DNA of 64,000 nt from Ancylobacter sp. TS-1 (lineage in GTDB: Bacteria; Pseudomonadota; Alphaproteobacteria; Rhizobiales; Xanthobacteraceae): NCBI RefSeq assembly GCF_009223885.1, contig NZ_CP045144.1, forward strand, positions 558,001 to 622,000, read 5' to 3'. Of the stretch, positions 997 to 2,446 are shown one piece after another (the first letter of the stretch is position 1; every line of letters begins with the position of its first letter). The position numbers were made by a program, and so were the translations under genes. The notes beneath the pieces are model-generated. The model was not told the DNA's origin. It worked only from the letters and a program-made list of their open reading frames with translations, and ran no database searches.

Positions 997-1626
997 CAGT
1001 GACAAGCCCCAACGCGTTCATACGCTGAATATTAGTGCGGATATGGTAAACAACCTGTTGTCAAACGCGTGAATAATGAGTCGCGTCGGACGCAGAGGAG
1101 GGTAGGCGTGCGATGTCGGGCCGAAGGGCCGGCAGCCGGTAACGTTAATGCCCAAGCGCATGTACTAAATTGCGCGCCGTAGTGACTGTATCGCAAACTA
1201 TCGCGCAGTGAATGTCGAATCGGTATTTCGGAATTCGGCGCCAGAAGCGGAACATTTTTGCCAAAATAATACGTGGTATCAGCCCATTAGGCATCATTTA
1301 TAAGGTGAGCAAAAACCCCTAACAGTCGTAGCCGTGAGTTGTCGACGTAGTTACACCAACACTCATGTTGCTGCACCGTCAGTACTGTTGTTTCGCGGCG
1401 ACTTCCGGTATCCAGGTAGATGTGTCGGGCGGTGAGATGGGCGCCCGATCCTGGGTCTCGTGCCGATCTGGCTGATCGTCGCCGGGAGGCGCGAGGGTGA
1501 TGCGGGCGGGGTGTCAAGATACCGCCATCACGCCGGAATTGACTCGGCGTGATTGGGATATGCATTTACCAGTAACAATGTTATTGTTCCAGCAGGTAGT
1601 GTTTCGGTACATCGGGGGGTGTGCCT
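997..1626. other. Long gene-poor interval with lower GC than its flanks
   Basis: About 630 bases between the start of the L,D-transpeptidase gene and the toxin-antitoxin pair. No convincing coding sequence is seen: the open frames here have no recognisable product and no well-placed ribosome-binding site. The base composition is visibly more AT-rich than the flanks, and this continues into the 5' part of the next gene. It must hold the promoters for the divergent transpeptidase and antitoxin genes. The only clear sequence element is a short inverted repeat at 1574-1588. The composition suggests acquired or decayed sequence; that is inference. Confidence 0.5.
1574..1588. promoter_or_regulatory. 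Inverted repeat, candidate antitoxin operator
   Basis: AACAAT (1574-1579) and ATTGTT (1583-1588) form a perfect 6-base inverted repeat with a 3-base spacer, ending 38 bases before the antitoxin ATG. Type II antitoxins usually repress their own operon by binding such sites near the promoter. A role here is inferred only from position and symmetry. Confidence 0.35.
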
Positions 1627-2028
1627 ATGTCAAAGTACAGTGCCTTGACGACGTTTCTGTCCAGTCGGACGCAGCCACGAATCTCCATGTCTTTCGATGA
1701 CATAGAGCGGATTGTTGGCACGCGACTTCCACAATCGGCGTTCAATCACCGGGCGTGGTGGAGTAACAACCCAACAAACAGTGTTATGACCAAGGCTTGG
1801 CTGTCCGCAGGCTTCCGAAGCGAGGAAGTCGATATGGTCGGTCGAAAACTGGTGTTTTCTCGGCACCTGCCAAATGTCGCCGCCGACCCCGCGTCGGCGC
1901 GGCCGGCATCGGCCTCGACAGGCTCGCCTCTGGCGGGGCTCTTCGGCGGGCTCAGGGGCACGATCCATGTCGAGCCGAGCACCGATCTCACCCAGCCGGT
2001 GAGCATCGACTGGACGGTGGAGGAGTGA
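1627..2028 (+). CDS. Probable antitoxin: DUF7662-like domain with a VapB-type C-terminal tail
   Basis: A 133-residue protein in two parts. Residues 1-80 resemble the DUF7662 family: a start like MSKYSALTTFL, then SFDDIERIVG, the signature RAWWSN (42-47), AWLSAGF (57-63) and a final VFSR-type strand. After an Ala/Ser/Pro-rich linker (about 84-102), residues 103-133 (LFGGLRGTIHVEPSTDL...DWTVEE) look like the C-terminal toxin-wrapping tail of VapB-like antitoxins. The stop codon is 1 base before the PIN-toxin start, which supports an antitoxin role. GC content rises sharply near 1870, where the domain boundary falls, suggesting the two halves have different origins. The ATG at 1627 follows a G-rich ribosome-binding site. 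Antitoxin activity is inferred from context. Confidence 0.7.
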   Translation: MSKYSALTTFLSSRTQPRISMSFDDIERIVGTRLPQSAFNHRAWWSNNPTNSVMTKAWLSAGFRSEEVDMVGRKLVFSRHLPNVAADPASARPASASTGSPLAGLFGGLRGTIHVEPSTDLTQPVSIDWTVEE

Positions 2029-2029
2029 C

Positions 2030-2446
2030 ATGGGACTGCCGCTTTTGCTCGACACCTGCGCAGCGGTCTGGATCGCCCAGGGCGCCCCGATCGCCGACGA
2101 GGCGCGCGGCACACTGATCGAGGCGCGGCTGCGCGGGACCCCGATCGCGGTCTCGGCGGTAACGGCTTGGGAGATCGGGGTGCTGGTGCATCAGGGCCGG
2201 ATCCGCCTGGCCATGGATCCGGCGAAGTGGTTCGCGGCGCTGAGCACGCTGCCGGGGGTGAGTGTCACCGCGCTGACGGCGGACACGCTGATCGCGGCGT
2301 CCTTCCTGCCGGGCATGCCGCCGAGCGATCCCATCGACCGCATTCTGATCGCGACCGCGCGCGACCAGGGGTACCGGCTGATGACGCGCGACCGGGTTCT
2401 GCTCGATTATGCGGAGTCGGGGAATGTGCAGGCCGTCGCCTGCTGA
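2030..2446 (+). CDS. PIN-domain ribonuclease toxin (VapC-like)
   Basis: A 138-residue PIN-domain protein. Acidic residues typical of the metal-binding site are present: Asp8 in LLLDTCA, Glu48 in SAVTAWEIG, Asp100/Asp103 in PSDPIDRILIATA and Asp121 in LMTRDRVLL. VapC-type toxins are Mg2+-dependent endoribonucleases, often cutting tRNA or rRNA; the target here cannot be predicted. The ATG is 1 base after the stop of the upstream antitoxin gene and has a GGAGG-like site inside that gene's end, so the two are translationally coupled. Length and motifs are normal for the family. The TGA stop lies 3 bases before the convergent flavin reductase gene end. Confidence 0.92.
   Translation: MGLPLLLDTCAAVWIAQGAPIADEARGTLIEARLRGTPIAVSAVTAWEIGVLVHQGRIRLAMDPAKWFAALSTLPGVSVTALTADTLIAASFLPGMPPSDPIDRILIATARDQGYRLMTRDRVLLDYAESGNVQAVAC

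Follow-up and report, generated by a model that had tools for sequence, protein, structure and literature searches.

A DUF7662-headed putative antitoxin with a Phd-type tail precedes a VapC-like PIN gene in Ancylobacter

Introduction

The closest described counterparts of the gene pair reported here are the Phd/YefM–VapC modules, which it resembles in gene order, in close spacing, in the clade of its PIN protein and, for part of these modules, in the tail of the antitoxin. PHD–PIN pairs and further families of antitoxins that accompany PIN proteins are in print (PMC2701414), and the portion of that account considered here makes no mention of DUF7662. Antitoxins of the Phd/YefM–VapC modules have a PF02604 head, whereas the antitoxin proposed here carries a DUF7662 domain, and a Pfam search at E ≤ 1 gave no match to the Phd/YefM N-terminal fold (PF02604).

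A further point of comparison is offered by PanA antitoxins that bear an exchangeable Phd-C element. Linear neutralizing elements on exchangeable domains have been described, and the Phd-C element of PanA has been likened structurally to the Doc-blocking end of Phd (both in the portion of PMC10440598 considered here). These PanA proteins likewise join a non-Phd head to a linear Phd-like neutralizing element; they differ in combining a Panacea domain with a Doc toxin, whereas the present pair combines a DUF7662 head with a PIN protein. In the literature searched, no paper was found that mentions DUF7662 by name, nor one that connects DUF2188, a domain that enters below, with antitoxins or toxin–antitoxin systems.

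Here we analyse such a pair in Ancylobacter sp. TS-1, within a window of 64,000 nucleotides (contig NZ_CP045144.1, positions 558,001 to 622,000) that belongs to a single-contig genome of 3.96 Mb. Comparison loci are designated by L numbers.

Results

Domain make-up of the gene pair

The two genes lie on the + strand (Table 1), and a single base (2029) separates the stop codon of the first (TGA, 2026–2028) from the ATG of the second at 2030. The first reading frame opens with ATG at 1627; GTG at 1621 is an alternative possible start. Its DUF7662 domain (PF24698, residues 4–79) scores 72.5 bits against a Pfam cut-off of 26 and includes both the RAWWSN and the AWLSAGF signatures, and the PIN domain of the second protein (residues 6–128) reaches 41.4 bits, the cut-off being 23.6. 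The initial annotation, made from the DNA letters, had described a 133-residue protein with a DUF7662-type head (its first 80 residues) bearing these two signatures that ends 1 base before a complete PIN gene; both descriptions are borne out by the profile matches and the codon positions.

Pfam at E ≤ 1 detected nothing besides DUF7662 in the first protein and nothing besides PIN in the second. At E ≤ 1 neither protein was matched by an NCBIfam or PADLOC model, and antitoxins of this kind may therefore escape annotation that relies on family models. PHROGs held no match for the antitoxin. Searches of the PDB with the antitoxin, its profile and the PIN proteins yielded no usable relative, and a solved DUF7662 relative was not found, one PDB search having returned five matches (E 0.19–1.2) that we took as chance.

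In an alignment of 93 PIN proteins paired with DUF7662 genes, residues D8, E48, D103 and D121 are invariant; these are the known catalytic acidic residues of PIN domains. The 93 were drawn from 106 distinct paired PINs, 13 truncated, over-long or near-identical sequences having been left out. The PIN profile that we used for scanning was made from the downstream frames themselves, and the PF01850 match found in 93/93 of the aligned proteins therefore serves as an independent check.

The G + C content across positions 1627–2025 is 53% in the head and 70–72% in the linker with the tail and in the PIN gene. Over 150 pair rows, duplicates included, means were 58% for the head and 65% for the linker with the tail.

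Table 1. Positions of the features of the gene pair in the window.
Feature	Position	Strand	Basis
Inverted repeat AACAAT-GTT-ATTGTT, candidate operator half-sites	1574..1588	.	Best repeat of the 90-nt upstream region
Six-G run, possible ribosome-binding site of the first gene	1614..1619	+	Inferred by reading the sequence
Proposed antitoxin gene, 133 aa, DUF7662 head and Phd-type tail	1627..2028	+	ORF, Pfam, homologues
DUF7662 domain, residues 4–79, proposed operator-binding or sensing head	1636..1863	+	PF24698, E 2.4e-20
Variable linker, residues 80–103	1864..1935	+	Gapped/variable in one alignment, without conserved columns in the 108-sequence alignment
Proposed toxin-wrapping tail, residues 104–133	1936..2025	+	G...G........DLT.P....W pattern; resemblance to tails of Phd-headed antitoxins
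GGAGGAG, likely ribosome-binding site of the PIN gene, within the first gene	2019..2025	+	Inferred by reading the sequence
PIN-domain (VapC-like) proposed toxin gene, 138 aa	2030..2446	+	PF01850, E 2.7e-10

Conservation of head and tail

A protein search with the window antitoxin gave 208 homologues at E ≤ 1e-3. Among the 120 matches listed, 104 are 120–150 aa long, and in 114 the alignment spans 93–100% of the query; the closest named relatives among the matches belong to Ancylobacter. When the window protein was aligned with 107 of the 120 homologues listed (108 sequences), conserved columns occurred in the head and in the tail and none in the linker. The head holds 13 of the 15 invariant columns. 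In the tail, two residues (G107 and L121) never vary, and G111, D120, T122, P124 and W129 are almost constant. The tail is, then, a conserved part of this protein family.

Compared with seven orthologues, the head (residues 1–80) gave omega values of 0.03–0.09, dS exceeding 1 for six of the seven; the corresponding ranges were 0.04–0.34 for the tail (one saturated pair set aside) and 0.05–0.24 for the PIN protein. All of these values are rough, since dS frequently approaches or exceeds 1. As judged from these substitution patterns, the pair is held under purifying selection. The antitoxins of six Ancylobacter-group orthologues (L006–L011) measure 177 aa from the aligned start, the tail of each being lengthened by about 44 residues that follow the conserved P and precede the final W. 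The homologues listed include some of 157 aa as well.

The tail goes with the PIN gene

We scanned genome contigs for relatives of the window antitoxin, confirmed 149 places and kept 80. In 79 of the 80 loci a PIN match begins no more than 60 nt downstream of the DUF7662 stop codon. The 80th (L060) holds a frame-broken copy of the antitoxin, with a PIN match 93 nt after the second piece. Spacing ran from an 8 nt overlap to 3 nt in 95 of the 113 rows with a PIN match (duplicates included), distances being taken to where the profile match begins instead of to the start codon. Two adjacent co-directional genes are thus kept together in relatives, as expected of a type II module. Decay was seen in L060, whose antitoxin is split, and in L161 (G078), whose PIN is split across two frames; a single Nitrospinae contig carries two DUF7662–PIN pairs about 10 kb apart (L013 and L022).

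We then tallied tails and PIN genes over 219 loci, most of them fetched for DUF7662 and 30 for PIN, which provided 165 DUF7662-headed frames that differ in sequence, near-copies among them. Tail and PIN (≤ 60 nt) occurred together in 102 of these frames; the tail was never present without the PIN. Five frames (L057, L082, L120, L124 and L182) had a PIN and no tail match, and by eye each has a diverged tail; a second tail profile gave 12.8 bits on the L120 gene (as L250) and 28.6 bits on the L124 gene (as L263). The remaining 58 had neither, and 42 of these are 80–120 aa long; the 58 include one piece of L060 as well as L114 and L116, whose PIN-like genes are invisible to the PIN profile used in the tally.

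Searches anchored on the PIN protein led to the same association. In one of them, which gave 49 PIN places, each of the 27 best (E ≤ 1e-25) lies next to a DUF7662 place, and with the PIN partner of a DUF2188 protein as query, DUF7662 plus tail precedes 16 of the 17 PIN places found, Phd preceding the other. The initial annotation had read the pair as a two-part antitoxin with a PIN partner, and had named the absence of further DUF7662 genes before PIN genes as grounds for rejecting that reading; many such pairs exist, that absence is excluded, and sequence comparison supports the proposed partnership.

DNA on both flanks of the pair matches the window in all seven relatives compared, and the operon therefore occupies one chromosomal place in them. 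Among 12 same-genus genomes listed, six have the DUF7662 gene and six are without it. In sampled genomes DUF7662 was present in 81/198 of the family, 15/385 of the class and 22/398 of the phylum. When viral contigs were scanned for two peptide patterns, 27 stretches matched, and no relative was confirmed among them.

Distances between head and PIN and between tail and PIN were compared over 105 pairs. The partial correlation with the PIN was higher for the head (r 0.60) than for the tail (0.39), the tail value lying above all 300 permutations. This is unlike what a partnership led by the tail alone would lead one to expect, although the tail is short.

Similar tails on Phd/YefM heads

We examined the upstream partners of PIN relatives that lack DUF7662. 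Of 21 such partners from genomes, one has a DUF2188 head and 20 are Phd/YefM-like in appearance; PF02604 matched in all five of the latter that were scanned, that of L162 below the curated cut-off. The PIN was matched by 94 plasmid records; of the 15 listed, five were fetched, with PINs 37–45% identical to that of the window. Four of the five partners are annotated Phd/YefM or prevent-host-death, and the fifth, which has no annotation, is a similar frame. A Phd–PIN pair (L002) is also present in the genome from which the window comes, with a PIN 38% identical to the window PIN.

The profile of the DUF7662-linked tail scored 18.0 bits on the partner from a Skermanella plasmid (L306) and 14.2 and 13.8 bits on those from two Sphingobium plasmids, against a maximum of 6.3 bits in 2000 shuffles; the other two plasmid partners gave no positive score. 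Of the 21 genome partners, four reached 8 bits and seven reached 5 bits, levels attained by 0 and 4 of 4200 shuffles respectively; 14 of the 21 stayed below 5 bits. None of 553 other frames in the window exceeded 2.4 bits. In single hhalign comparisons, with E computed for one target, the values were 1.4e-5 against 18 Phd partners and 2.4e-6 against 13, and the conserved matches fall in the tail, though the alignments start earlier. The window antitoxin has, in this respect, the C-terminal tail of the PIN-partnered Phd/YefM branch, a resemblance that stands out in some of the partners only. A PDB search started from a Phd partner gave weak matches to chains named VapB46 (6jqy, E 0.045) and uncharacterized protein (3dbo, E 0.13), the latter presumably being VapBC5.

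Because PIN relatives without DUF7662 have Phd/YefM-like or DUF2188 heads, several of them with a similar tail, the tail looks like a toxin-binding module carried on exchangeable heads. We built a PIN tree from 30 of the 93 DUF7662-partnered PINs (the window protein and 29 taken at random), 20 Phd-partnered PINs and the DUF2188-partnered one. The DUF7662- and Phd-labelled proteins each lie on one side of a branch, with supports of 83 and 65; a starred split (support 99) separates 12 Phd PINs from a set made up of the DUF7662 group, eight Phd PINs and the DUF2188 one. In a FastTree of all 93, the DUF7662-partnered PINs fall together with a support of 0.63. The midpoint-rooted tree fits a Phd ancestor with a single replacement by DUF7662, a polarity that depends on the assumed midpoint root and on the supports of 83 and 65.

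The initial annotation had proposed that a VapB antitoxin lost its DNA-binding head to DUF7662. The exchange of heads agrees with the sequence comparisons, its order resting on the midpoint root; the replaced head would have been of the Phd/YefM type and not AbrB, because the examined relatives in the PIN clade bear Phd/YefM-like heads. For the same reason we dropped the tail of AbrB-headed VapB proteins as a model for the present one.

Candidate operators upstream of the pairs

We searched the 90 nt before each start codon for the best inverted repeat and compared it with 60 random shuffles per sequence, a procedure by which the counts vary between runs because the shuffles are random. Repeats at p ≤ 0.05 were found in 39 of 94 DUF7662–PIN operons, where about five would be expected, and p exceeded 0.1 in 42 of the 94. 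With similar upstream sequences removed the count was 35 of 85. Among 47 low-scoring DUF7662 genes (30–85 bits) taken as controls, 6 reached p ≤ 0.05 (9 on a repeat draw); three of these 47 (L114, L116 and L120) have a PIN or PIN-like neighbour, and without them the figure was 7/44. The centres of the 39 significant palindromes lie at a median distance of 32 nt upstream of the start codon (quartiles 28–36). The repeat of the window itself is not significant alone (p 0.098 against its own shuffles). A promoter scan found no sigma-70-type promoter upstream of the window pair.

The half-site ATAGTTA or GTAACTA, which the window repeat lacks, occurs upstream of 23 of the 85 non-redundant DUF7662–PIN operons, and as an almost perfect palindrome in five loci. 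It is present in 0/23 Phd upstreams, 17/3200 random 90-mers of the same loci and 1/47 controls, the one being L116, and in 0/44 DUF7662 genes without a PIN. Since the motif was picked after a k-mer survey of the same upstream regions, only the control sets amount to an independent check; the lone control match is itself a DUF7662–PIN pair, and these counts together tie the half-site to the DUF7662 head in PIN pairs. Candidate operator upstreams of L024 and L048 read ATAGTTACTGTGTAACTAT. L116, a DUF7662–PIN pair with another tail and PIN, combines the half-site with a palindrome at p 0.049.

The initial annotation had named DNA binding or sensing as the likely role of DUF7662. The palindromes and the recurring half-site favour DUF7662 as the operator-binding head, although shared descent of the promoters may be the source of the recurrence. 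The palindromes nevertheless vary from locus to locus, whereas the head is almost constant; this is a poor fit to sequence-specific operator recognition and leaves room for a role in sensing.

DUF7662 and DUF2188 in other combinations

DUF7662 also precedes three other combinations of tail and PIN, which, like the window pair, place it directly before a PIN-like gene, with other tails and other PINs. The best represented is a second DUF7662 family (L240:2313–3179 (−), L244, L245, L297 and L298), whose tail reads FDLDR.WP....SWP.GFTVSREQIYDE.GRLTGGP. A PIN follows in 5/5 genomes, its LDT-like motif lying 8–10 nt after the stop codon, and Pfam gives the PIN assignment for the three of these five PINs that were scanned. 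A protein search for this family gave 650 matches, 120 of them listed; 22 aligned members have the tail in common, apart from one that stops short. L114 and L116 hold two further tails with PIN-like genes, that of L116 matching PIN at E 6.4e-4, below the Pfam cut-off.

A single protein in L247 (709–1737, +) combines a HEPN_Swt1 domain with a C-terminal DUF7662 (Pfam), and in L240 a frame similar to it adjoins the second kind of DUF7662–PIN pair. By tblastn, DUF7662 places were found in 12 plasmid and six phage records, none spanning 80% of the query, and partly under features named HNH (endonuclease), DUF4268 and RloF. In L239 (1492–1872, +) and L241 (1348–1737, −), DUF7662 is followed by a short LTIAEAKAGLA..FG....IEITI end, with no PIN seen beside it; the end in L239 matches phrog_37247 (E 6.1e-5).

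In L221 (604–1472, −; P0121) the head is DUF2188 (PF09954) instead of DUF7662, the tail is similar and the PIN gene that follows is related. A protein search found 20 homologues of this protein, and the tail is present in 12 of 14 aligned; L221, the one neighbourhood looked at, is the case in which such a protein was seen to adjoin a PIN gene. DUF2188 is possibly a second uncharacterized domain that serves as an antitoxin head.

Discussion

We propose, with a probability of about 80%, that the pair is a chromosomal type II toxin–antitoxin operon in which a VapC-like PIN protein is held in check by a DUF7662-headed antitoxin. The PIN protein, its acidic residues intact, would act as an RNA-cleaving nuclease. 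The C-terminal tail of the antitoxin would wrap and block it, as in Phd-headed VapB antitoxins, and thereby neutralize it; for the DUF7662 domain, which occupies the position of the Phd/YefM head, the most likely function is to bind a palindromic operator some 30 nt upstream of the start codon. Through this binding the pair would repress its own promoter. On sequence grounds we regard as established which domains make up the two proteins and in what order the genes lie, the strict link between tail and PIN, the presence of a similar tail on Phd heads, purifying selection and the operator-like palindromes across the family.

The part of this proposal most open to another reading is the head. 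DUF7662 might instead be a sensor or accessory domain of an antitoxin that neutralizes its toxin in the same way, much as Panacea is, in the portion of PMC10440598 considered here, the proposed sensor in some PanA antitoxins while another domain neutralizes. The concentration of invariant columns in a head whose palindromes vary by locus speaks for this, as does the joining of DUF7662 to HEPN_Swt1 and its occurrence under features named HNH endonuclease, DUF4268 and RloF; against it stands the half-site, found in 23/85 DUF7662–PIN operons and in none of the Phd upstreams or the DUF7662 genes without a PIN. We consider a sensing head rather unlikely, if worth keeping in view. The same company of nucleases, HNH by annotation, HEPN_Swt1 by Pfam and several PIN-like genes, could also be accommodated if the pair were no toxin–antitoxin system at all, and DUF7662 a recruiting subunit, docked through the tail peptide, that brings a PIN effector to a target such as foreign nucleic acid. 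That appears improbable, given that the antitoxin-first order, the 1 nt spacing, the Phd/YefM-like tail and the operator-like palindromes are the usual marks of type II modules, that no relative was confirmed in the viral-contig scan with two peptide patterns, and that no PADLOC model matched.

A chance neighbourhood of two unrelated genes, for which we found no supporting point, is excluded by the pairing in 79/80 loci, by the 102 tail-bearing frames with a PIN as against 0 without, and by the same chromosomal place in seven relatives; we give it practically no weight. A broader and rather unlikely reading, speculative for now, is that DUF7662 is a general exchangeable head placed before several nuclease-controlling tails. 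By sensing some conserved ligand or feature of nucleic acids, this head may set the nuclease free, and the pairs would then be triggered defence modules and not plain self-repressing toxin–antitoxin pairs. The basis counted for this consists of the four tail–PIN combinations with DUF7662 and the one kind of protein that contains HEPN_Swt1.

The link between tail and PIN gives the uncharacterized DUF7662 domain a testable role. Heads of three types (Phd/YefM, DUF7662 and DUF2188) stand ahead of similar tails and related PIN proteins, and this amounts to a natural experiment in the exchange of antitoxin heads.
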